Shown in pieces: positions 3,008 to 22,942 of a DNA stretch of 22,942 nt. The first letter of the stretch is position 1. The number at the start of each line of letters is the position of its first letter. The notes beneath the pieces are model-generated. The model was not told the DNA's origin. It saw nothing but the letters and a program-made list of their open reading frames with translations, and ran no database searches. A program made the translations under genes and the position numbers. Source of the DNA: a virus; IMG/VR virus record IMGVR_UViG_3300027833_000231, positions 1-22,942 of that record; one strand, written 5' to 3'.

Positions 3008-3015
3008 TATAAATA
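3008..3015 (+). promoter_or_regulatory. Candidate T4-type late promoter before gp25
   Basis: TATAAATA is an exact match to the T4 late promoter recognised by the gp55 sigma factor, and sits in one of the few intergenic gaps (2992-3020). With the usual spacing, transcription would begin about 6 bases after the box, at or next to the gp25 ATG (3021), giving an almost leaderless RNA. That is unusual and lowers confidence. Confidence 0.5.
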
Positions 3016-5356: not shown

Positions 5357-7558
5357 ATGTCAGAAAGTAACTCACCAGGATATATCGAGACTTTAGCCTC
5401 TAGTAAGAAAAAGACTAAAGAGAACCTGAGAGTACAACAGGTAATACCAAGTGAGATTTTAGAAGCAAGTGGTGATACGGGTATTCAGTTACTCTTAGAA
5501 AAATACTACGACTTCATGAACCTCAATGAGTTTATATATGAGCAAAATGAGACTCATACAGACCTAGTTTTGGATGGCGTTGCACGTTTTCGTATCTCTG
5601 ATCCGAACAATGAAAACAATCAGTTTTATACAGATGAACAGGGTAGTAGTTCTACATTAACTATTAAGGGACAAGACGGTAATACTGCTACAGTGGCTCT
5701 CAATAGTACTAATGTGGCTATATCAAATGGTAACGAACTTCCTGGCTCATTAAGAAATAGTACATCTGAAATAGGCAAGACAATGACCATCAGTGGTTTA
5801 TCTGCCTATAATGGTGATGTCGCAAGTTTAACCACACCGATTAAAAATTGGGTAGGCCCTGGTCCCTCTTATGTCTTAAATGCCATAGAGGACTTTATGG
5901 ACATTGACAAGAACTCTGATAGTGAGCTAGACGCGACTCATCAGTACCTAGAAATGATGCAGAAAGAAATTGCCTCTGCCATTCCAAGAGGACTACTGGT
6001 AAATAAAAATACGCTTTATAAAAGAATCGTAGACTTCTATAAGGTAAGAGGTTCGTCTGATTCTATTGAGACATTCTTTAGGTTACTCTTTAACGAAGAA
6101 GTTGAAATTGAGAGACCTTATGATAATACTCTCATACCTTCATCAGGAGATTGGTTCAGTGATACTAATCAGTTTATTTCTAATAAGGGATTTCTTTCTG
6201 AAAAGAAAATAAAGATACATGACAGTTACAGATACCAAAAATATTCTTACCTCATTAAAACAGGTAAAAATTTAACTGACTGGGAATATACGTTTAACAG
6301 ATTAGTACATCCTGCTGGATTTATCTTCTTTGGAGAGATTCTGATCCTTATTAATATGGTAAGAGATGCTCTTGGTGATGGTAAGGTAGAAAAGGGTATT
6401 AATGTACCTACTAAGAATCCGGTGACTGGCTTAATAGTAGATCAATTAGTGAATGCGTATGGCAGAACTAATAGGTTTACTCTCTCCTCTATGCCTGGTA
6501 TACAACCTGGTGTTATTGGTGCGGAAGACTTACCATTACTCGTAGAGATGTTCGCAGCTATGTTTGGACCTTCTCCAAAGGCTCTCATTAATAAGACAGC
6601 AATTCTTTCGCCTGTTATTAATAGTAGTGGAGTCATGACTGCGGTAGAGATAGTTAACCAAGGTCATAATTATACTTCACCCCCAACAATTACATTCTCT
6701 GGTACAGGTACCGGTGCTGCGGCTACTGCAGTATTAAATGTTGAAGGTGGTATTGATTCTATTACTGTAGACCAAGGTGGTAGTGGTTATACAGAAATAG
6801 CGGCTACTGTACCTGCTCCTGCTAGTGGTGCTGGTAAAGTTGGTGCCATAATTTATTCCACAGATGCTAATAAATTATATCGTTCGGCTCCTATTATTAC
6901 ATTGGACGCTCCTACAGCAGTTGATCAAGATGGTGTTTTACTTACAAGTAATATACAGGCAACTGCAGAGTTTGTGATGGAACCTACTTCGGTAGAACTA
7001 CTGCGTTTAACTAGCACAGGTACTAACTACACGAGTGAACCGTCAGTTACTATTGCATTACCTACAGGTAGTGGTGGTACAAGAGCAACTGCAAGAGCAA
7101 TTATTAATGATGTGGGCCAAGTAGATGGTCTCTTTATTACAGATCCTGGTTCTGGTTATCTTGGTATTCCTGATGTACAGATAATTGGCGGAGGCGGTGG
7201 TGGTGCAACATGTGTACCTCTTCTGACCCCAACAGAAATAGCCAGTATAAATATTACCAATGAAGGTAATGGTTATGTTTTAGATCCAGTTGTTAAATTA
7301 GGCTCTTCAATGGTGATTGAATCAAGAGCAAAAGAGACTGGCATGTATTTAAAAGTTATGCTCAATCATCTTTTAGATGGAACAAGGACTATACAAAGTA
7401 ATAACTACTTTAATAATAAAGGTAATGTTCCTAAATATAGTCATAGAAGGTTTAATTTAAATCAGACTATTGAACAATTCGGAAGTCAAACCATACAATC
7501 AAACAATATAAATAGTATAAATAGATATAACACAAATTCTTTTATAGACTTAAATTAA
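5357..7558 (+). CDS. Baseplate protein in gp7 / P2 gpI position, with C-terminal GY repeats
   Basis: 733 residues. It sits directly after the gp25-gp6 pair, where T4 has gp7 (1032 aa) and P2 has gpI. Residues about 175-340 contain VNKNTLYKRIVDFYKVRGS and DSIETFFRLLFNEEVEIE, a pattern I know from T4-like marine phages and comparable to the gpI-type wedge arm that carries fibres. An insert at about 85-165 (ITIKG/TISGLSAYNGD type) interrupts the N-terminal region. Residues about 420-650 hold five copies of a beta repeat ending in GxxY...P (NQGHNYTSPP, QGGSGYTE, STGTNYTSEP, DPGSGYLGIP, NEGNGYVLDP). The C-terminus is Asn-rich (INSINRYN), and its codons create two late-promoter matches. AAGG at 5343-5346 lies 10 bases before ATG. 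Equivalence to gp7 is inferred from position. Confidence 0.7.
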   Translation: MSESNSPGYIETLASSKKKTKENLRVQQVIPSEILEASGDTGIQLLLEKYYDFMNLNEFIYEQNETHTDLVLDGVARFRISDPNNENNQFYTDEQGSSSTLTIKGQDGNTATVALNSTNVAISNGNELPGSLRNSTSEIGKTMTISGLSAYNGDVASLTTPIKNWVGPGPSYVLNAIEDFMDIDKNSDSELDATHQYLEMMQKEIASAIPRGLLVNKNTLYKRIVDFYKVRGSSDSIETFFRLLFNEEVEIERPYDNTLIPSSGDWFSDTNQFISNKGFLSEKKIKIHDSYRYQKYSYLIKTGKNLTDWEYTFNRLVHPAGFIFFGEILILINMVRDALGDGKVEKGINVPTKNPVTGLIVDQLVNAYGRTNRFTLSSMPGIQPGVIGAEDLPLLVEMFAAMFGPSPKALINKTAILSPVINSSGVMTAVEIVNQGHNYTSPPTITFSGTGTGAAATAVLNVEGGIDSITVDQGGSGYTEIAATVPAPASGAGKVGAIIYSTDANKLYRSAPIITLDAPTAVDQDGVLLTSNIQATAEFVMEPTSVELLRLTSTGTNYTSEPSVTIALPTGSGGTRATARAIINDVGQVDGLFITDPGSGYLGIPDVQIIGGGGGGATCVPLLTPTEIASINITNEGNGYVLDPVVKLGSSMVIESRAKETGMYLKVMLNHLLDGTRTIQSNNYFNNKGNVPKYSHRRFNLNQTIEQFGSQTIQSNNINSINRYNTNSFIDLN
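7507..7523 (+). promoter_or_regulatory. Tandem pair of candidate T4-type late promoters
   Basis: TATAAATA occurs exactly at 7507-7514 and again at 7516-7523, as a perfect 9-bp direct repeat (TATAAATAG twice, 7507-7524). Both lie in the last codons of the preceding gene, encoding INS-INR. Predicted starts are near 7520 and 7529, leaving about 60-65 bases of leader before the gp8-like ATG at 7587. Two adjacent exact matches in front of a new gene make a promoter role plausible. Confidence 0.55.
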
Positions 7559-7586: not shown

Positions 7587-8981
7587 ATGGCAGCAATTAT
7601 TACAACCCCTTTCAGAGTTCTCAATGCGGAGAATTTCAAGGAAGATGTAGCAGATGCAAGCACTAGTGTTTATCTAGGTATTGGTAAATCTGATGCCTGG
7701 TCCAATACCACAAGTGATTTAACTGATACAACTCCTTTCGTACCTGGTGATCATAGAGATGATATTAATGAAGCATATCAGCAAATGATTGCTATGAAAT
7801 TAATCAACGCATCTGATGTATCTCATGTGGTACCAAGATATAACTATGCAGACGGAGAGAGTTTCGTTGCATGGGATTCAGATGATTCAGATATTTTCGA
7901 TAAGAAGTTTTATTGTATCACTTCTGAATTTAAAGTTTATAAATGTATTAAAGCCGGTGGTGGTGCAACTAGTGCTCAACCAGTGCATACAACTACTAAT
8001 CCTGTAGCACTTGGTGATGGTTACACATGGAAATACATGTATACAGTTGCCACAGCTGATTCAGAAAAATTCTTAACAAATTCATATATGCCAGTTAGTA
8101 CATTAGACTTTACTGTAGCAGCTAATGGAACTGCAAGTATTCCTACTGCTCTTTTGGATACAGATGTTAGATACCCACAAACTGCTTCTCAGGTTGCTTC
8201 ATATAATTCTACTACCGCTGCCGGTATTGAAAGAATTGAAGTTGTTAATGGTGGTATCTATTCTGCAACTCCTACTGTAACTATTACAGGAGACGGCACA
8301 GGTGCTACGGCAACAGCAGTAATGAGTGGTTCAGGTTCTACACAAACAGTTGCAAGTATTACTGTTAACGCGAAGGGCTCAGATTATACTGTTTCAGATA
8401 TTACCTTTAGTGCTGGTGATGCTAGTGCTAGAGCAGTAATCGCTCCTCAATCAGGACATGGTACAGATCCAGTCGGAGAACTGGGTGCTTTCTTTGTTGG
8501 TTTAAATACACAACTTGATGGAGCAGACGGCGGTGATATTACAATCGGTAATGATTTCAGGCAAGTAGTGATTGTAAAGAATCCTTATTCAACTGGTACA
8601 ACTGTTGCTACTTCACCTACTTTAAAAGCTACTAAATATATTCAATTGGCTTCAGGCCAGAATGTAACAAACTTTGTAGTTGACCAAGTTATTACTGGTG
8701 GTACTTCAGGTGCCAAAGCATACCTAGTTGAAATTGATGCATCAAATTTAAAATTGTATTATTACCAAAATTCAAAAACAGGTTATGGTGCATTTGCAAA
8801 CAATGAAGTAATTACAGGCTCGAATCCAACTGGAGGTTCTTCTACTACTCATGCTAGTACAGCAGTTAATGCGGCAGAAGTAGTGAAAGGTAGTGGACAA
8901 TTAGTCTTCTTGGAGAATAGAGCACCAATTAATAGAAGTGCTTCACAGATTGAAGATATTAAATGCATTATTGAATTCTAA
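7587..8981 (+). CDS. 8: Baseplate wedge protein, gp8-like
   Basis: 464 residues (T4 gp8 is 334). It opens with MAAIITTPFRVLNAENF and SVYLGIGKSDAW, followed by GDGYTWKYMYTV (143-154) and FLTNSYMPV (162-170), a block typical of gp8 in T4-like marine phages. A second family block is PQSGHGTDPVGELGAFFVG (287-305) with NDFRQVVIVKNPY (322-334), and the C-terminus RAPINRSASQIEDIKCIIEF is also typical. gp8 is a dimer in the wedge that contacts gp7 and gp10. Extra segments compared with T4 are a GY-type repeat at about 212-285 and two ITG motifs (GGTSGAKAYL at 371-380; NEVITGSNPTGG at 406-417). AGGA at 7574-7577 lies 9 bases before ATG. Confidence 0.82.
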   Translation: MAAIITTPFRVLNAENFKEDVADASTSVYLGIGKSDAWSNTTSDLTDTTPFVPGDHRDDINEAYQQMIAMKLINASDVSHVVPRYNYADGESFVAWDSDDSDIFDKKFYCITSEFKVYKCIKAGGGATSAQPVHTTTNPVALGDGYTWKYMYTVATADSEKFLTNSYMPVSTLDFTVAANGTASIPTALLDTDVRYPQTASQVASYNSTTAAGIERIEVVNGGIYSATPTVTITGDGTGATATAVMSGSGSTQTVASITVNAKGSDYTVSDITFSAGDASARAVIAPQSGHGTDPVGELGAFFVGLNTQLDGADGGDITIGNDFRQVVIVKNPYSTGTTVATSPTLKATKYIQLASGQNVTNFVVDQVITGGTSGAKAYLVEIDASNLKLYYYQNSKTGYGAFANNEVITGSNPTGGSSTTHASTAVNAAEVVKGSGQLVFLENRAPINRSASQIEDIKCIIEF

Positions 8982-14308: not shown

Positions 14309-14508
14309 TGAATAAAATAAAAATAGACAACAATTTTGACCTAGAAAGAGATTTAACAAATCATGCCGTTATAAATAATAATAAGACGGCATATAATCAA
14401 AGATTATCTCAAATAGCTAAGAGAAATAAACAATCGGATGAACTTGCTGAAATGAAAAATGACATTGCAGAAATTAAAGCACTATTAAAAAATTTAGGTG
14501 GTAAATAA
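14308..14508 (+). CDS. Small coiled-coil protein between two giant structural genes
   Basis: 66 residues, highly charged. The second half (about 31-62: QRLSQIAKRNKQSDELAEMK, then DIAEIKALLKNL) shows heptad-like spacing of I/L/M expected of a coiled coil. It has no signal peptide or membrane segment. It overlaps both neighbours by one base (TAATG at each end), and I see no strong Shine-Dalgarno of its own, so translation is probably coupled to the 1765-residue gene. Its last codons contain AGGTGG (14496-14501), the ribosome site of the next gene. Small coiled-coil genes at this place are familiar from marine T4-like phages; function is unknown, with an assembly factor or trimer adaptor as guesses only. 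Confidence 0.7.
   Translation: MNKIKIDNNFDLERDLTNHAVINNNKTAYNQRLSQIAKRNKQSDELAEMKNDIAEIKALLKNLGGK
14370..14377 (+). promoter_or_regulatory. Possible T4-type late promoter inside the 66-residue gene
   Basis: An exact TATAAATA encoded by GTT-ATA-AAT-AAT. It could give RNA starting near 14384, about 125 bases before the 1843-residue fibre gene. It lies within coding sequence rich in AAT/ATA codons, so chance is a serious alternative. Confidence 0.28.
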
Positions 14509-17500
14509 TGGCCGACAACGAAATTAAAATTTTAAAATCTAATACATTCGAGGAGTGGAGACAAAAGTCAAATGAAGTCTCACTAAACCTTGGAGCTGAT
14601 GATAGATTAGATTCTAGGTTAACAGATAAAGTATTTAAACACGATAATGTGTCGGGTTTAAAATTAAATATTATTGATGGTGATGATGATAATTCAAAGA
14701 CGCAAGTTTTTCCGTTAATAACAGATACCTCTATTGATAATACTGCGGGTTACATTATTCTTGCAGATAGTACAAGTATTCCAAGTGCATTTATTGCTGG
14801 TGCTGGTGTTGGCCAAACAGGCGGTTATTCGGCAACAATTGAGTCTATTGTAACGATTGATAATAAACCAAAAATCTTGGTAAAAAATTCTACGGGTAAT
14901 TTTAATTCATCACTTGATTTAAGTGTTGGTGGTTCATCGATTGCTAATGCTAATGTTTTAAGATTAATTTCTGAATCATATGATAAAGCAGCAATTAGAG
15001 TACTGGATGGTTCTACAGAATTAACTCAAGGCCTTGCAGCTGCTGATTATCATATTCCTAATGCTACAGGTAAAGTTATATTAACAGGAAGTCCTGATTT
15101 AACTAAGTTTACTGAAGGTTCTACTGTTTATCAAGATAGTGCTAATAGAAGTACATTAGCTCAAGTTGAAGATAATGCATCATGGCATGGTACAGTATAT
15201 CATGCTGGAACATCACATCTTTATATTAAATCTCATAGTGGAACTTATAGTGCTAGTGCTCAAATTAGAATTTTAGGTTATACTGCAGCTCAGGCAAAAG
15301 TTGCTGGCGCTGAACATACTGCATTCACTCCATTTGATCAAACCACAGGGCATATAGTTGAATTTAATTCTTCATTAAGTATTAATGATGATATTAAAGT
15401 TATTGCAACTGATTTAGTTACAGCAATTAACGAAGTACAAGATGATATTGGAACAGTAGAAAATTTAACAACTAGTGCGACTGATTTACAATCAGCAATC
15501 AATGAACACGAAGCAGACCTATTTAATGTAGAGGGTGGAACAAAAAGAACTCTTGCAAATTTAAAAACTACTGATAAAACTTCTATCTTAGATTCTATTA
15601 ATGAAATCTATGATGATATTCACACAACAGATAGTGTCACATTAGGTACTGATGCTAATTATCTTGTTGGTGGTGTTAATGAATTAGAGACTGCAGTAAG
15701 AGGTAATTTAAGTAACTATAATCTTGGAACAACTAATCAAACCGATGGTGTTATTGGTGCAGTTAATGAATTAGAAGCAGCCCTAAGAGGTACAAATACT
15801 AATTATACTGTAACTGCAGGTACTAATATACGTGACGGATTAAATGCAGTATATGCTGATATTCATACTGCGGGGTCCGTAACACTTAATACTGGTGCCA
15901 ATTACCTTGTAGGTGGTATCAATGAATTAGAAGTTGCCCTAAGAGGCACAGCTCTAACTAATTATACTTTAACTACTGCTTCTTCGGATGGAGTCATTGG
16001 TGGAATTAATGAACACGATGCAGAATTAGGAACAATTACTTCTGCCGCTATGGGTACTGATGCATCAACTGTATCAACTGCAATACTTGAGCTTGAAACT
16101 GCACTTAGAGGAACAACAGGTAATTATGTAACATGGGGTGCTGGTGCTAATATTGCTGCTACTGATGTCCGTGGTGCTATTGTTGAATTAGGAACAACAA
16201 TCGGTAGTGGTGTTATTACAGGTACCGATACTGAGGCAGTAGGTGCAGCAAACTTAACAGTAGCAGTTAATTTACTTAATACTGCAATCGGTGATTCAGA
16301 TATTTACAATACCGGAACTTATGGTTCCACTACAATTGCTGGAACATTAGATAATCTAAAAACTGGTGTAGTCAATAATGACACAGACATCGGTAAGGTT
16401 ATGAAATTAATTGATGGTGCCGTAACTGTTGATAATAGTATTTCATTCACTGATTTGGCCGCTACGCACATTAAAGGTGCAATTAACGAGATTTCAGGAA
16501 CAACTATTACTGCTGGTGCTGGTTTAGCAGGTGGCGGTAATTTAAGAAGTGATAAAACAATCAATGTTGTTGGTGCAACAGATGGTGGTATTACTGTTAA
16601 CGCCAATGATATTGAAGTTGATTCAACTGTAATCAGAACAACTACTACAACCGGTCAGACTTTTGATCAGGATATTACATTTACTACAGGTAACACACTT
16701 ACAATTCCTGATGGTGCAACTCTTGACATTGATGGTACACTTCTAATTGGTGGAGGTGCTGGTTCATCTCTATCCTTTGATACAGCATTTATTACTCTTG
16801 CTTCTAGTGCAAGTTCAGAAGGTATTGAAATTGATAGAAGTGCTATCAATATTAATGGTGCTGTTGGTGGTGCAACTTCACCAACACTCGATGCAAAAAT
16901 TCAGTGGAACGAAGGTGTAGTTGGAACCAAACCAGATAGAGCTTGGCAGGCAGTAGGTATTGACGATAGTGGAAATGCTCTTACTGCAGATATTGTAACA
17001 TTCTATAATGCTCAAGATTTAATATCCAATAACACAGAAACAGATTTAAATGCCACCTGGGATTCTACAAATCAAAACTTTGACTTTGCATTAAAAACTA
17101 CAGGTGTTTCTGCAAATTCATATGGTAGTACAACGGCAATTCCTGTATTAACTATTGATAATAAAGGTAGAATAACAGCTGCAACGACCGCAAGTATTGT
17201 TACAGAATTAACATTTAGTGCAGAAACTAATAGTGGCGGCTCTGGGCATCAAGTAATTAATCTTGCATCTGAAACACTTCACTTTGATGGAGTCGCAAAT
17301 CAGATTGTAACAGAGGCCAAAGATGATGAAGTTGAATTTGGTTTACCTACTGATTTAAGAGCTCCAGGCACACTAAGAGTACTAAGTAATACTCAGTCTA
17401 CAAGCACAACATCGGGATCATTAAGAGTTGCAGGTGGTGTTGGTATTGCTAAAGATGTTTATATTGGCGGCAACTTAACTGTATCTGGTTCTACAACTCA

Positions 17501-20039
17501 GGTAAATTCAAATCAGGTTAACATCGGCGATAACATCATTGTTTTAAACGCTGATGAAACTGGTACTCCAACACAGAATGCTGGTTTTGAAGTAGAAAGA
17601 GGTAGCGTTACTAACCGTTCATTAATTTGGAACGAATCAACTGATACTTGGCAGGCCCAGGCATCAAACGGAACATACTATAATATTATTACAGAACAAA
17701 CTGATTATGATAATTGGAACTTAGCGGCTGAAGGTGTTTCTGGTTCGGAAAGTATTACAACTGCAGAAACTGTGACATTTAATCAAGCTGCTGGTTTAAC
17801 AGTAACAAGAAGTGGTTCAACGATTGAATATGGTCATGCAGATACATCAACTCTTTTAGGTCAGTTAGGTACTGGTACTGGTGGTTATGTAATCCAAGAC
17901 TTTACAGTTGACGGTTTCGGTCATGTTACTGCAATTGATGAAGTTAATTTAGATGACAGATACATCAGATCTTGGAATGCTAAAGACCATGATGGTACAA
18001 CATACTCTATCACACAAAATGATACACTTTGGTTTAAAGAAGGCACCGGTATGGATGTCAACTTTACTGCTGATGATGTATTAACCTTTACAAATACAGA
18101 TAGAGGTTCATCTCAAAATATCTTTAAGAATGTACAATTAAGAAATTCTGCACATACTGCTTTAGGAACCTTGGTTGCTGATAATAATAATGATACATTA
18201 ATCATCGATGCAGGTAACAGTGGAATCACATTAGTTGCTGATGACGTTTCGGGTGATAGATTCTCTATTAGCCATACTGATACTTCAAGTGTTGCTAACT
18301 TAACTTCTAATAATTCAAATGGAGTTGTATTACAAGATATTGACTTTGACTTTGACACATTTGGTCACACAACAGTGGCAGGTGTAACAACTGTTGATTT
18401 AGATAGCAGATATATTAGATCATTCCAAGTTGAAGATGGAGATGGAACAGAAGTCACAATCAATCAGGCCAATGAATGGAAATTTGTAGAAGGCACTGGT
18501 TCAGGTGCATCAATTGATATTAACTGGAGCGATGTAAGTAATGGTTCAAATGCGGATCCCTATGATCTAACATTTGCTGTTACTAATACCGATAAGGGTT
18601 CTGATCAAAACATATTTAAAAATGTTACAGCTAGGAACGAGGCCAACACGGTTTTAGGAACTTGTACTGCGGATAATAATAATGATACACTTTATCTTGA
18701 CGCAGGAAACAGTGGTATTACATTATCAGTTACCCCAGCATCAGATATTATACATATTAATCATGCTGACACTTCAACACTATCAGGCGCACAAGGCTCC
18801 AGTGGAATTGCATCATTTTCAGTTGATGGATATGGCCATGTAACTGGTGTGACTACAGCAACCTATGATAATTATAGTTCGTGGACTGCAAAAGATCATG
18901 ATGGCACAACATATGGTATTACCTCTGGTGATACTTTGTGGTATAAAGAAGGCACCGGTATGGATGTCAACTTTACTGCTGATGATCAATTAACCTTTAC
19001 AAATACAGATAGAGGTTCAAGTCAGAATATCTTTAAAACTATGTCTGTTAGCTCTACTGATAGTGGTTATTCTTGGTCAGAGACCGGCTACGTTACTGCA
19101 AATAGTAATGCAACAACCTTAACCTTTGTTGAAAGCACAGGCATTGACATTGACAGAGATGATACTAATAAGGCTATTAGATTCACAAACACTGCTCCTC
19201 ACGTTGGAACAAACCTTTCATGGTCCAGAACAGCCAGTGTTTTAACAGTAACATCATCTACTGGTAATAATGTTGAGTTACCATCTGCAGATGCGAATGG
19301 TCCGGGTGTATTAACAGTAGGTGGTTATAATAAACTTACTGGTATTGCAAGTAATGCTGAAGTTAACCAGAATGCATTCTCAACAATTACAATTGGTACA
19401 GCAGGAGCCGGGGGAACTAATTTTAATGCGGCATCAAAAACAGATACATTATCAATTGCATTTGGAAGTGAATTTGATCTGACTAATAACACATCACAAA
19501 TGTCTTCGACTATTAACTTAGATACTGATCAAAGAAACCATGTCAGGAAAATGGGCACTATCAACACTGGTAATATGACAATCGATGCCAGCGGAACTGG
19601 ATATATTTATTTTGATAGTCATAGTGGGACGAGTGATACAACAGGAACACATGAACTTAGATTTTCTGCTGGTGGTCAAATTGATGCCGCTGGAGATATT
19701 ATTGCATTCTCATCAGCAACCTCGTCAGATAGAAAATTAAAAGAAAATATCCAAAAGGTTGAAGGCGCATTAGAGTTAGTATCACAACTAGATGGAGTTA
19801 CCTTTGACTGGAAAGATAAAGAAAGAGGTTCAGCTGCTGGTGTAATTGCTCAGAATGTAGAAGAAGTATTACCTTCAGCTGTTAAAGATGTAGATACTCT
19901 AAGCGAAGAAGGTGAGACACATAAGGTTGTAGATTATAACCAACTATCTGCTCTCTTTATTGAATCAATAAAAGAATTAAAAGAAGAAAATAAATTACTC
20001 AGGGCAGAAATTGAGGCCCTAAAAGATATAAATAGGTAG
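14508..20039 (+). CDS. Giant tail fibre with C-terminal S74 intramolecular chaperone
   Basis: 1843 residues. The N-terminus (KILKSNTFEEWRQKSNEVSL) is a probable attachment region. Residues about 300-600 carry about ten short helical repeats of the AINELExAL / GGINELEVALRG type, expected to form a trimeric coiled stalk. A fibre module with LTVSGSTTQVNSNQVNIGDN lies around 995-1015, and three repeats of about 150 residues at about 1150-1520 carry KDHDGTTY, EGTGMDVNFTADD and NTDRGSSQNIFK. The C-terminus from about 1725 is an S74 chaperone: SDRKLKENI with Ser1740 and Lys1745, the Ser-to-Lys +5 spacing known in phage endosialidases, then GVIAQNVEEVLP, VDYNQLSALFIESIKEL and a terminal coiled coil. 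Such domains trimerise the fibre and then cut themselves off before the Ser, here leaving about 1739 residues. AGGTGG at 14496-14501 is 6 bases before ATG. Confidence 0.85.
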   Translation: MADNEIKILKSNTFEEWRQKSNEVSLNLGADDRLDSRLTDKVFKHDNVSGLKLNIIDGDDDNSKTQVFPLITDTSIDNTAGYIILADSTSIPSAFIAGAGVGQTGGYSATIESIVTIDNKPKILVKNSTGNFNSSLDLSVGGSSIANANVLRLISESYDKAAIRVLDGSTELTQGLAAADYHIPNATGKVILTGSPDLTKFTEGSTVYQDSANRSTLAQVEDNASWHGTVYHAGTSHLYIKSHSGTYSASAQIRILGYTAAQAKVAGAEHTAFTPFDQTTGHIVEFNSSLSINDDIKVIATDLVTAINEVQDDIGTVENLTTSATDLQSAINEHEADLFNVEGGTKRTLANLKTTDKTSILDSINEIYDDIHTTDSVTLGTDANYLVGGVNELETAVRGNLSNYNLGTTNQTDGVIGAVNELEAALRGTNTNYTVTAGTNIRDGLNAVYADIHTAGSVTLNTGANYLVGGINELEVALRGTALTNYTLTTASSDGVIGGINEHDAELGTITSAAMGTDASTVSTAILELETALRGTTGNYVTWGAGANIAATDVRGAIVELGTTIGSGVITGTDTEAVGAANLTVAVNLLNTAIGDSDIYNTGTYGSTTIAGTLDNLKTGVVNNDTDIGKVMKLIDGAVTVDNSISFTDLAATHIKGAINEISGTTITAGAGLAGGGNLRSDKTINVVGATDGGITVNANDIEVDSTVIRTTTTTGQTFDQDITFTTGNTLTIPDGATLDIDGTLLIGGGAGSSLSFDTAFITLASSASSEGIEIDRSAININGAVGGATSPTLDAKIQWNEGVVGTKPDRAWQAVGIDDSGNALTADIVTFYNAQDLISNNTETDLNATWDSTNQNFDFALKTTGVSANSYGSTTAIPVLTIDNKGRITAATTASIVTELTFSAETNSGGSGHQVINLASETLHFDGVANQIVTEAKDDEVEFGLPTDLRAPGTLRVLSNTQSTSTTSGSLRVAGGVGIAKDVYIGGNLTVSGSTTQVNSNQVNIGDNIIVLNADETGTPTQNAGFEVERGSVTNRSLIWNESTDTWQAQASNGTYYNIITEQTDYDNWNLAAEGVSGSESITTAETVTFNQAAGLTVTRSGSTIEYGHADTSTLLGQLGTGTGGYVIQDFTVDGFGHVTAIDEVNLDDRYIRSWNAKDHDGTTYSITQNDTLWFKEGTGMDVNFTADDVLTFTNTDRGSSQNIFKNVQLRNSAHTALGTLVADNNNDTLIIDAGNSGITLVADDVSGDRFSISHTDTSSVANLTSNNSNGVVLQDIDFDFDTFGHTTVAGVTTVDLDSRYIRSFQVEDGDGTEVTINQANEWKFVEGTGSGASIDINWSDVSNGSNADPYDLTFAVTNTDKGSDQNIFKNVTARNEANTVLGTCTADNNNDTLYLDAGNSGITLSVTPASDIIHINHADTSTLSGAQGSSGIASFSVDGYGHVTGVTTATYDNYSSWTAKDHDGTTYGITSGDTLWYKEGTGMDVNFTADDQLTFTNTDRGSSQNIFKTMSVSSTDSGYSWSETGYVTANSNATTLTFVESTGIDIDRDDTNKAIRFTNTAPHVGTNLSWSRTASVLTVTSSTGNNVELPSADANGPGVLTVGGYNKLTGIASNAEVNQNAFSTITIGTAGAGGTNFNAASKTDTLSIAFGSEFDLTNNTSQMSSTINLDTDQRNHVRKMGTINTGNMTIDASGTGYIYFDSHSGTSDTTGTHELRFSAGGQIDAAGDIIAFSSATSSDRKLKENIQKVEGALELVSQLDGVTFDWKDKERGSAAGVIAQNVEEVLPSAVKDVDTLSEEGETHKVVDYNQLSALFIESIKELKEENKLLRAEIEALKDINR
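18035..19019 (+). repeat. Long near-identical direct repeat inside the giant fibre gene
   Basis: A 76-base segment at 18035-18110 recurs at 18944-19019, 909 bases (303 codons) later, with only 2 mismatches (GTA versus CAA after GATGAT). A third, diverged protein-level copy lies between them (FVEGTGSGASIDINWSD with LTFAVTNTDKGSDQNIFKNV, about 18484-18630). Copies one and three are thus far more alike than either is to the middle one. Confidence 0.9.
20027..20034 (+). promoter_or_regulatory. Candidate T4-type late promoter before the BppU-like gene
   Basis: An exact TATAAATA, embedded in the last codons of the giant fibre (GAT-ATA-AAT-AGG-TAG). The predicted start near 20040 leaves a short leader of about 12 bases that still contains AAGGA (20042-20046) before ATG 20052. 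This spacing suits transcription of the three-gene block 20052-22179. Confidence 0.58.
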
Positions 20040-20051
20040 GTAAGGAATAAA

Positions 20052-20390
20052 ATGGCAATTATATCTAACATAGTTATTGACCAAGGCACATCTTTTTCCG
20101 CAGAGATTGATGTATCGGATAACGAAGGTAATATATTACCACTTACCGGCTATACAGCAGCAGGGCAGATGCGTAGAACATATAGTTCAACTACGGCTAC
20201 TGACTTTACTGCAGTTGTTTCTAGTGCGCTAGAAGGCACGGTAAAAATATCATTAACGCCCACGCAGACAAATAGTTTGAAGGCTGGAAGATATGTATAT
20301 GATGTGGAAATAACAGCTGCTGATGGTGCTATAACCAGAGTAGTTGAAGGGCAAGTAGAGGTAACACCAGGAGTAACGAGGGCTTCTTAA
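20052..20390 (+). CDS. BppU-like / Ig-like baseplate-associated protein
   Basis: 112 residues, predicted all-beta. The patterns DQGTSFSAEIDVSDNEGNIL, LTGYTAAGQMRRTYSST, then LKAGRYVYDVEIT and TRVVEGQVEVTPGVT are common in small virion proteins of marine T4-like phages and resemble the N-terminal domain of the BppU baseplate upper protein. This kind of domain usually joins receptor-binding fibres to the baseplate, which fits its place before two fibre-related genes. The ATG at 20052 is preceded by AAGGA with a 5-base spacer. The next ATG follows the stop without a gap. The family call is from pattern memory; the specific role is inferred. Confidence 0.65.
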   Translation: MAIISNIVIDQGTSFSAEIDVSDNEGNILPLTGYTAAGQMRRTYSSTTATDFTAVVSSALEGTVKISLTPTQTNSLKAGRYVYDVEITAADGAITRVVEGQVEVTPGVTRAS

Positions 20391-20636
20391 ATGGCTATTA
20401 GAGGAAAGATTAGGCAGACTAATCAGATAAAAGGTAAGAAAACCGGCCAAAATGAAATTGTTGCACAGACTGTAAAAATCAGTGCACAAGGACTAACACT
20501 TGGTGACCTTGCTAATGTAAATGTAAACGGACAGTCAGACGGCGCAATGATGATCTATGACGGTTCAGTAGGCGAATATAAAATTACAACTCAGATTGAA
20601 AATGAAAATCTGAACATAATTGGAGGCACATACTAG
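20391..20636 (+). CDS. Small fibre-related protein ending in GGTY
   Basis: 81 residues. The N-terminal half is basic (RGKIRQTNQIKGKKTGQN); the second half (GLTLGDLANVNVNGQSDGAM, MIYDGSVGEYKITTQIE) resembles a small virion protein family in marine T4-like phages. It ends in NLNIIGGTY, nearly the same as the IIDGGTY end of the next fibre. GAGGG at 20378-20382, inside the previous gene, lies 8 bases before ATG. The codons for the two glycines (GGA GGC) form the GGAGG ribosome site of the following gene. Function is unknown; an adaptor or fibre cap is possible. Confidence 0.65.
   Translation: MAIRGKIRQTNQIKGKKTGQNEIVAQTVKISAQGLTLGDLANVNVNGQSDGAMMIYDGSVGEYKITTQIENENLNIIGGTY
20622..20626 (+). promoter_or_regulatory. 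Ribosome binding site GGAGG deciding the start of the 513-residue fibre
   Basis: GGAGG lies 11 bases before ATG 20638 and inside the Gly-Gly codons of the upstream gene. It supports ATG 20638 over an in-frame TTG at 20620, which would overlap this site. Confidence 0.7.
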
Positions 20637-20637
20637 T

Positions 20638-22179
20638 ATGTCGAATTTAACAAGAATTAAAATATTATCTACGGGTTCTAACACCAACTCCCCTAGTAAT
20701 TTAAAAACCGGTGAACTTGCATACTCTTATGAGCAAACTTCAAAAGGTCAAGCACAAGCAGGTGAGCGATTATATATCGGTTCGGGTACAGAAAGCGGTG
20801 GTGTCGCTTCTTCGATTGATATTATCGGTGGTAAGTATTTTACTAACCTATTATCACATGTACATGGCACAACAACAGCTAACTCTGCATTAATTGTAGA
20901 CGGCAATAAACACATTACCGAATTAAATATTGGTAGTCTTGCATTAGAAAGTACTGGTGGTTCAGGACAAGTTGTTACAAGTATTTCTACTTCTACTTCT
21001 TTAACTGGGGCCAGTAACTCTCAATTAGTAACTGCACTAGCGGCAAAAACTTATATTGATGCTCAAATTACTGCTCAAGATTTAGACTTCCAAGGTGATA
21101 ATGGTGGTGCATTATCTATTGACTTGGATTCAGAAACATTAAGTATTCTTGGTGATACAGGAATTACAACCACAGGTTCAGGTAATCAAGTACTTATTGA
21201 CCTGAATGATACTGCAGTAACACCAGGATCATACGGTTCACAAACTGCTATTCCAACATTTACAGTTGACCAACAAGGTAGATTAACAGATGCTGGAACA
21301 GTAACTGTTGCTACTGCTCTTACTGTTGATGGTGATAGTGGTACAGGAGATGTTGATCTCTTAACAGATGATTTACAAATCACAGGGACAGCAAATGAAA
21401 TTGTAACTGCTGCTTCTAAATCAGGAACAGATGTAACTCTTCAAATTGGTTTACCCAACGATGTGACTATCGGTCAGGATTTATCTGTTACTCGTGATAC
21501 TACTGTAACAAGAAACTTAACTGTTAATGGTAATACAATTCTTGGTGATACCACTTCTGATACAGTAACTACTGGCGGTAATTTAACAGTTGGTGGTAAC
21601 TTAGTTGTTAACGGTACTACAACATCTGTTAATTCAACTAATATCTCACTAGATGATCCAGTCTTAGTCTTAGCTGATAATACTTCAGCGGCTGACGGTA
21701 TTGATAGAGGTATCAGATTTAAGTGGCATGATGGTAGTGCTGTTAAAGAAGGTTTCTTTGGATTTGATATTCAAACAGAAAGATTTGTATTCACCAATGA
21801 TGAGGACTTTAGTGGAGGCGAGAATGCTTCAACACCATGGTCAGATGCAGCATTTGGTGGACTTTATGCAGATAATATTAAGATTGCGATTGACGGTACC
21901 AATGAAATCAGTACAGGCTCTGGTAATTTAATTCTTGATTCTGCAGGCGGTACAGTCCAGGTTACAGATAACTTAGATGTTACCGGTGCATTAACATTAG
22001 GAACTCAACTTGCAATTGCAGAAGGTGGTACTGGTCTAACTAGTGTTACTAATAATTCTGTTATGGTTGTTACAGGATCCGGTATTAATTTTGTTACAGG
22101 TACTCAAGGTAAATTAATTCAGTTTAATTCCTCAGGTGTTCCAGTAGCTTCTGATATTATTGATGGTGGAACATACTAA
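20638..22179 (+). CDS. Tail fibre protein
   Basis: 513 residues. The N-terminus has an anchor-like block, SPSNLKTGELAYSY (about 19-32) with GERLYIG, then GGKYFTNLLSHVHGTTTANS, typical of tail fibres in T4-like marine phages. The middle is repetitive beta structure (VTPGSYGSQTAIPTFTVDQQ; LTVGGNLVVNGTTTSVNST). A module around 355-415 (DRGIRFKWHDGSAVKEGFFG and TERFVFTNDEDF) is a widely shared fibre module. The C-terminus (LAIAEGGTGLTSVTNNSV, GKLIQFNSSGVPVASDIIDG then GTY) also follows a familiar fibre ending. It should assemble as a trimer on the baseplate, possibly with the products of the two small genes before it. The start at 20638 is one base after the upstream stop. Confidence 0.8.
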   Translation: MSNLTRIKILSTGSNTNSPSNLKTGELAYSYEQTSKGQAQAGERLYIGSGTESGGVASSIDIIGGKYFTNLLSHVHGTTTANSALIVDGNKHITELNIGSLALESTGGSGQVVTSISTSTSLTGASNSQLVTALAAKTYIDAQITAQDLDFQGDNGGALSIDLDSETLSILGDTGITTTGSGNQVLIDLNDTAVTPGSYGSQTAIPTFTVDQQGRLTDAGTVTVATALTVDGDSGTGDVDLLTDDLQITGTANEIVTAASKSGTDVTLQIGLPNDVTIGQDLSVTRDTTVTRNLTVNGNTILGDTTSDTVTTGGNLTVGGNLVVNGTTTSVNSTNISLDDPVLVLADNTSAADGIDRGIRFKWHDGSAVKEGFFGFDIQTERFVFTNDEDFSGGENASTPWSDAAFGGLYADNIKIAIDGTNEISTGSGNLILDSAGGTVQVTDNLDVTGALTLGTQLAIAEGGTGLTSVTNNSVMVVTGSGINFVTGTQGKLIQFNSSGVPVASDIIDGGTY

Positions 22180-22182
22180 ACT

Positions 22183-22272
22183 CCTCTCCTAGTTGTTATA
22201 AATAGAATAAAGGTTTATATAACCTAACATAATTTTATAAGCTCTATATAGAGATTGAACAAATAGGAGAGG
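22183..22272 (+). promoter_or_regulatory. Inverted repeat that can hide the ribosome site of the next fibre gene
   Basis: The left arm at 22183-22197 (CCTCTCCTAGTTGTT) pairs with the right arm at 22258-22272 (AACAAATAGGAGAGG) at 14 of 15 positions; the one mismatch is G22192 opposite A22263. The right arm contains the Shine-Dalgarno AGGAGAGG (22265-22272). Between the arms lie two small palindromes, AGGTTTATATAACCT (22211-22225) and CTCTATATAGAG (22242-22253). The late-promoter match begins on the last base of the left arm, so RNA from it would lack that arm. Folding energy was not computed. Confidence 0.75.
22197..22204 (+). promoter_or_regulatory. Candidate T4-type late promoter of the last fibre gene
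   Basis: An exact TATAAATA in the only long intergenic gap of the window (22180-22278). The predicted start near 22210-22211 coincides with the first base of the AGGTTTATATAACCT hairpin and leaves a leader of about 68 bases before TTG 22279. I see no other gene or clear terminator in this gap. Confidence 0.65.
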
Positions 22273-22278
22273 CCAAAA

Positions 22279-22942
22279 TTGAGCCAGACAGTCAAATTAA
22301 GAAGATCCGCAACAAGCGGGTCGGTTCCAACAACATCTGCATTAGCACTCGGCGAATTAGCCATAAACACTTACGATGGTAAACTGTATCTTAAAAAGAG
22401 CGTAAGTGGTACAGAAACAATTGTAGAAATTGGTGCTAATAATCTAGCAGACACATTCAATATATACGAATATGCAGTAACATCTAATACCACAGTCTTT
22501 AGTGGCTCGGATCAAAATGGAACTACTCTTGCATATACTACTGGCTCTCCTCCAAAGGTTGCTGTATTTTTAAATGGTCTTCTTCTTGATTGGGGAACAG
22601 ACTTTACGGCTACAAACGGAACAAGTGTTACTCTTACTTCAGCCGCTGTATCAGGCGACCTAGTTCAAATTCAAGCTTATAAATCAGAAATATATACAGG
22701 TTCTAATTTAACATTCCCTGATAATGTAAAAGCACTATTCGGTGATGATAGTGATTTACAGATTTACCATGATGGTAGTCATAGTTATATAAGAGATGTA
22801 GGCACAGGCAATTTGCATATAGACGGTACTCGAGTACTATTGAGGTCTGCTTCTAGTGCAGATATGGTTAAAGCTATTGGTGCTGGTGCAGTAGAACTTT
22901 ACCACAATGCTATTAAAAAGTTTGAGACAACAAGCACTGGTG
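22279..22942 (+). CDS. Tail fibre protein, N-terminal part (runs off the window, TTG start)
   Basis: 221 residues are visible. The opening, SQTVKLRRSATSGSVPTTSA then LALGELAINTYDGKLYLKK, is a classic phage fibre N-terminus; a domain with VAVFLNGLLLDWGTDFTATN (about 95-115) follows, then the marine-phage fibre repeat DLQIYHDGSHSYIRDVGTGN and VELYHNAIKKFETTSTG. The start is TTG: an in-frame TAG at 22264-22266 lies 12 bases upstream of the TTG, no in-frame ATG is near, and TAGGAGAGG ends 6 bases before the TTG. GELA plus GKLY also occurs in the preceding fibre (GELA, GERLYIG), suggesting the same kind of attachment. Confidence 0.8.
   Translation, partial: MSQTVKLRRSATSGSVPTTSALALGELAINTYDGKLYLKKSVSGTETIVEIGANNLADTFNIYEYAVTSNTTVFSGSDQNGTTLAYTTGSPPKVAVFLNGLLLDWGTDFTATNGTSVTLTSAAVSGDLVQIQAYKSEIYTGSNLTFPDNVKALFGDDSDLQIYHDGSHSYIRDVGTGNLHIDGTRVLLRSASSADMVKAIGAGAVELYHNAIKKFETTSTG

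Follow-up and report, generated by a model that had tools for sequence, protein, structure and literature searches.

The question raised by this locus is how the dose of a phage tail fibre might be set relative to the genes upstream of it. Fibres decide host range, and to our knowledge the way in which marine phages control fibre dose is not known; in T4, a switch based on a hidden Shine-Dalgarno sequence (SD) is known from genes for lysis, for a capsid protein and for homing endonucleases. The window analysed here, i.e. the whole 22,942-nucleotide (22.9 kb) stretch of the virus record IMGVR_UViG_3300027833_000231, comes from an uncultured marine T4-like phage and encodes homologues of the T4 baseplate proteins gp53, gp5, gp25, gp6 and gp8, with gp8 being nearest to those of T4-like phages of Methylophilales and Pelagibacter (31-33% identity). 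At its end two fibre genes follow each other on the plus strand. The upstream gene (20638-22179), for which relatives were found, starts with ATG at 20638 and ends with TAA (22177-22179); the downstream gene (22279-22942), which runs off the window, starts 99 nt past this stop with a TTG that is kept in relatives, and an in-frame TAG at 22264-22266 makes an earlier in-frame start impossible.

A preliminary description of this stretch had reported a 15-bp inverted repeat (14 paired) over the SD of the downstream fibre gene and a late promoter beginning on the last base of the blocking arm, and both were confirmed. The left, anti-SD arm CCTCTCCTAGTTGTT (22183-22197, plus strand) begins 3 nt past the upstream stop codon, and the right arm AACAAATAGGAGAGG (22258-22272, plus strand) holds the SD AGGAG (22265-22269); 14 of the 15 positions pair, with one G/A mismatch, and the SD is covered. 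The putative T4-type late promoter TATAAATA (22197-22204, plus strand) has as its first base the last base of the left arm, and judging from T4 late promoters (PMC2988020) its RNA would be expected to start near 22210/22211. None of 1000 dinucleotide shuffles of the left arm equalled the real arm in pairing with the SD region, and the fold of 22180-22290 amounts to -24.9 kcal/mol (z = -3.1; 1/200 shuffles as good). Folding with and without the left arm is in keeping with the earlier proposal that read-through RNA hides the SD, the predicted cost of opening the SD being 10.7 kcal/mol in read-through RNA vs 0.55 kcal/mol in RNA from ~22211 (difference +10.1), in the predicted fold of which the SD is open. 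The promoter placement likewise supports a late-promoter RNA without the arm, with the start site assumed. What the preliminary description missed were two conserved hairpins in the leader and the conservation of the TTG start.

From the arms, the promoter position, the covariation and the conservation of hairpins and TTG, all seen in the sequence, we infer promoter use, SD closure in vivo and an effect on dose. With moderate confidence, we regard 22180-22280 as a translational control leader of the tail-fibre gene. RNA begun locally at the late promoter (~22210) would start past the anti-SD arm, carry two small hairpins with the SD open and be translated from the weak TTG. Read-through RNA from the upstream fibre cluster would contain the arm, which would pair with the SD and close it, and this RNA would then either give no downstream fibre or do so only while the arm is held open by a ribosome completing the upstream one. 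The downstream fibre would thereby have its dose set independently of the upstream genes or in relation to them, and the arm would be an optional extra on a hairpin leader of wider distribution.

For T4 e and I-TevI a late promoter within an SD-sequestering helix is established, and in e, soc, 49 and I-TevI the read-through RNA hides the SD while the late RNA does not (PMC3014915, PMC2988022). The parallel to e and soc drawn in the preliminary description fits as far as the logic of hidden SD and promoter is concerned: the 5' arm precedes the late promoter or lies inside it, the SD is predicted to be closed by a helix in the read-through RNA, and the late-promoter RNA, given the assumed start site, is without the 5' arm. 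It fits less well in that the read-through RNA is early or middle in these T4 cases and probably late here, where tail genes lie upstream with a likely late promoter of their own. The TTG start, the two conserved hairpins inside the loop and the presence of the arm in only part of the clade are further differences.

The motif TATAAATA alone is not rare (7 in the window vs 4.3 expected by chance), and we read 22197-22204 as a promoter because its position is conserved in relatives, not because of motif rarity. Another copy at 20027-20034 (plus strand) is a possible late promoter of the upstream fibre cluster and source of the read-through RNA, and most relatives have a TATAAATA ~570 nt 5' of the fibre; no intrinsic terminator was found in 19900-22942. 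Since the neighbours are tail genes, and given the TATAAATA at 20027, the read-through RNA here is probably itself late; with tail genes as neighbours, the timing control of T4 e does not transfer directly. Moreover, the arm directly follows the upstream stop, so that a ribosome terminating there would prevent it from pairing. We therefore favour control of dose, whether the read-through RNA is silenced or coupled, over control of timing, and rate silencing and coupling to upstream translation as equally likely. Judged by sequence comparison, the locus is a real, partly conserved example of a switch of known kind, placed in a new setting on a hairpin leader; the gene predicted here to be under hidden-SD control encodes an adhesin, and covariation is seen in relatives.

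Using upstream-fibre and leader-motif searches we gathered 33 comparable junctions, some of which are near-copies; one unrelated match (L190) was excluded, and the matches of a motif scan with TAGGAGAGGNNNNNNTTGAG over viral contigs were unspecific and discarded. Promoter, SD and TTG start are retained in nearly all junctions. As promoter, 30 of the 33 have exactly TATAAATA, L299 has CATAAATA and L095 has TATAAGTA, whereas L098 has none. The start is TTG in all 33; most patterns that fetched extra junctions contained ATTG, and junctions fetched by protein similarity alone also have TTG. The distance from upstream stop to promoter (with the stop or promoter set by eye for L286, L085 and L300) is 0-9 nt in 24 junctions and 12-28 nt in eight, namely the window (= L281), L081, L283, L286, L297 (= L106), L301 (= L094), L001 (= L083) and L096.

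An anti-SD arm is present in 8/33 junctions, which are all those with at least 12 nt between stop and promoter, and the arm adjoins the promoter. When every arm is paired with the SD region of its own junction, the total over seven of these (L081 was omitted as a near-copy of the window) is -113.7 kcal/mol vs a mean of -91.9 for reassigned arms, and 4 of 5,040 reassignments paired as well as the true one; such permutation tests ignore descent, and the armed junctions cluster on the tree. Dinucleotide shuffles were as good as the arm in at most 1/1000 cases for the window, L081, L297 and L301, in 15-25/1000 for L096, L001 and L283, and in 138 for L286. The predicted cost of SD opening in read-through minus late RNA has a median of +6.9 kcal/mol in armed vs 0.05 in unarmed junctions, with an effect of only 2-5 kcal/mol in L096, L001 and L286. 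On the upstream-fibre tree the armed state requires four changes, at least two of which are forced by well supported branches.

The compensatory changes in the two arms that the preliminary description had called for were thus found as covariation among the armed relatives, and the eight armed junctions are consistent with a switch in these phages; most relatives have no arm. Loss of pairing with the SD kept, which that description had named as evidence against the switch, comes close to what we see, 24/32 promoter-bearing junctions keeping promoter, SD and TTG without an arm, and the hidden-SD switch is for this reason not a property of the whole clade. It might be argued that any purine-rich SD will find a partner in pyrimidine-rich sequence ahead of the promoter, such that the arm is a by-product and only the leader hairpins matter, for mRNA stability or as a protein site, as would agree with an arm absent in most relatives and with hairpins present and covarying in all of them. 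We hold this to be quite unlikely, since each arm is matched to the variable sequence that flanks its own SD, and the arms of the window, L081, L297 and L301 beat at least 999 of 1000 shuffles; on these comparisons, the blocking arm looks selected but optional.

Common to all related leaders are two hairpins between promoter and SD, in the window H1 (AGGTT-TATAT-AACCT, 22211-22225, plus strand, a slightly degenerate copy) and H2 (CTCT-ATAT-AGAG, 22242-22253, plus strand), both resting on covariation and folding. Among 27 distinct leaders 99.6% of the cells pair, a percentage that is partly by construction as the hairpins were located by stem search, and double changes occur in 63 cells vs 14.3 in shuffles; positions were fixed by hand before counting for H1 in three leaders and for H2 in one. 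Sliding the pairing partner abolishes the covariation signal, and the stronger evidence for the leader, as read from the alignment, is the range of compensating pair types at fixed positions. The loops are ATAT, AAAT, ACAT, TAAT or TCAT, i.e. of the form NNAU, and a U-A pair closes the loop in every aligned leader. A covariance model of the leader gave one strong match per record, at the downstream fibre gene, in 17/17 contigs, the weak extra matches being for the most part these palindromic hairpins read on the other strand; no match was obtained in Melnitz, Mosig or HTVC008M, the nearest cultured phages by gp8. Structured leaders are known from T4-like cyanophages as the Rfam manA and wcaG RNAs (PMC2864571), and the present leader resembles these in being a structured leader in marine phages and differs in that no Rfam 15 family matched the window leader or its carriers (E up to 1). 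As far as the open-access literature is concerned, the hairpin leader appears to be undescribed, and possible roles of the hairpins are protection of the RNA 5' end, aid in SD closure or protein binding.

A DNA palindrome as the conserved unit was considered and is unlikely, as some loops break the palindrome while the stems compensate. The same variation, which points to RNA, bears on the reading that the junction is a conserved recombination border for exchange of fibre modules with the repeats as DNA sites; this we consider highly improbable, even though the hairpin type occurs at fibre borders of both T4-like and siphovirus-like contigs and PeSL (promoter-early stem-loop) cassettes are, according to PMC4503421, thought to act in this way in T4-type phages. 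PeSLs share with our junction a promoter and a stem-loop at borders of exchangeable genes. In a PeSL the promoter is an early one and the stem-loop resembles a terminator; our junction has a putative promoter of the late type, and neither an early (sigma-70 type) promoter nor a terminator-like stem-loop was found in 22180-22280.

The hairpin type extends beyond these leaders. Most downstream-fibre homologues retrieved through protein similarity have an ATG start, and 22 of 31 of their junctions carry a hairpin whose loop is of this type, often GCGTATATACGC. A pattern scan on this core yielded 118 stretches with 70 distinct cores and a compact layout, in which the upstream frame ends in DGGTF or similar, followed by 11-20 nt, a short anti-SD at the hairpin foot, ~8 nt, the SD and ATG; since hairpin and start were prescribed by the pattern, information comes only from the arm and the SD. 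The arms in compact junctions fit their own SD better than swapped ones (0/20,000 as good; 80/20,000 with 14 divergent clusters), and strong SD closure by compact elements was unsupported by the predicted opening energy (2.86 vs 2.60 kcal/mol with shuffled upstream sequence, p = 0.17), which indicates weak closure. L098 represents the compact arrangement within the T4-like clade; at 2306-2415 it has, instead of a late promoter, a long hairpin with CTCCT at its foot that can pair with AGGAG.

These junctions bear on a rival account in which coupling is the main role, i.e. the arm ties the downstream fibre to ribosomes finishing the upstream fibre, the two proteins are made in ratio and the late promoter only adds RNA. 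In its favour, the arm lies as close as 3 nt to the upstream stop, the compact-junction hairpin is 11-20 nt past the stop in 68/69 cases, and structures that close a ribosome binding site and are opened by upstream ribosomes are established in other systems (PMC12548453). The locus resembles the coupled pairs f1 VII-IX, MS2 coat-lysis and rpmI-rplT in that the SD of the second gene is closed, here by prediction, through sequence close to the upstream stop (PMC12548453), and differs from them in that a separate late promoter would bypass the coupling, which is putative here. Borders between phage genes are short anyway, which makes the nearness of stop and arm weak evidence, 99 nt from stop to start is long for coupling, and most T4-like relatives are armless and have no closure to relieve. 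Coupling as the main role is an unlikely explanation, though one of appreciable probability, and we retain the leader with separately or relatively set dose as the preferred reading.

Outside the T4-like group, the hairpin type, often with a short anti-SD, lies between fibre genes of siphovirus-like contigs, one carrier being so classified since it encodes a tape-measure and a distal tail protein. In a survey of 16 cultured or single-cell phage records it was found 5' of fibre-family genes in P-SSM2, AG-345-E02, AG-345-F15, S-CAM9, S-8S55, S-PRM1, DSL-LC02, DSL-LC03, S-B43 and S-CBS2; matches inside coding sequence in Vibrio 1.208.B and MED4-213 are probably due to chance, and the type was not found in Vibrio 172P1, Sf-CH8, S-SCSM1 and IME08. 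The second hairpins of the cyanophages are only ~3 bp, and the first hairpin of S-8S55 (loop TTAT) was read by eye. In S-B43 (L324 300-395) CACTT, which forms the 5' side of the first hairpin, could also pair with a putative SD AGGTG, a possible alternative structure. Over all loci, at least 127 of 133 hairpins with a following SD and open frame precede fibre-type N-termini, a count biased by loci having been fetched with fibre queries and patterns. The occurrence in many marine phages suggests a shared control of fibre amount. More tentatively, and with less than even confidence, we propose that U-A-closed ANAU (more rarely NNAU) hairpins, occurring alone or in tandem and frequently with an adjoining anti-SD, may constitute an undescribed class of tail-fibre leaders in T4-like and siphovirus-like marine phages that would set fibre translation, possibly via a factor reading the loop. 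As the type is common to the cultured cyanophages P-SSM2, S-CAM9, S-8S55, S-B43, DSL-LC02, DSL-LC03 and S-CBS2, the RNA element is open to direct testing.

Other features of the window were noted. A TATAAATA at 3008-3015 lies 5 nt 5' of the ATG (3021) of the gp25 homologue and, if used, would give a nearly leaderless RNA, and two TATAAATA boxes with 1 nt between them (7507-7523) are located ahead of the gp8 homologue at 7587. The 1843-aa ORF at 14508-20039 is a repeat-built structural protein with direct repeats (17967-19036) of 161 nt at 84% and 146 nt at 71%, and a 20 bp perfect tandem duplication (AAGCCTGGCCTGTCTACATA, 1249-1288) is present at the 3' end of a 124-aa ORF (895-1269).
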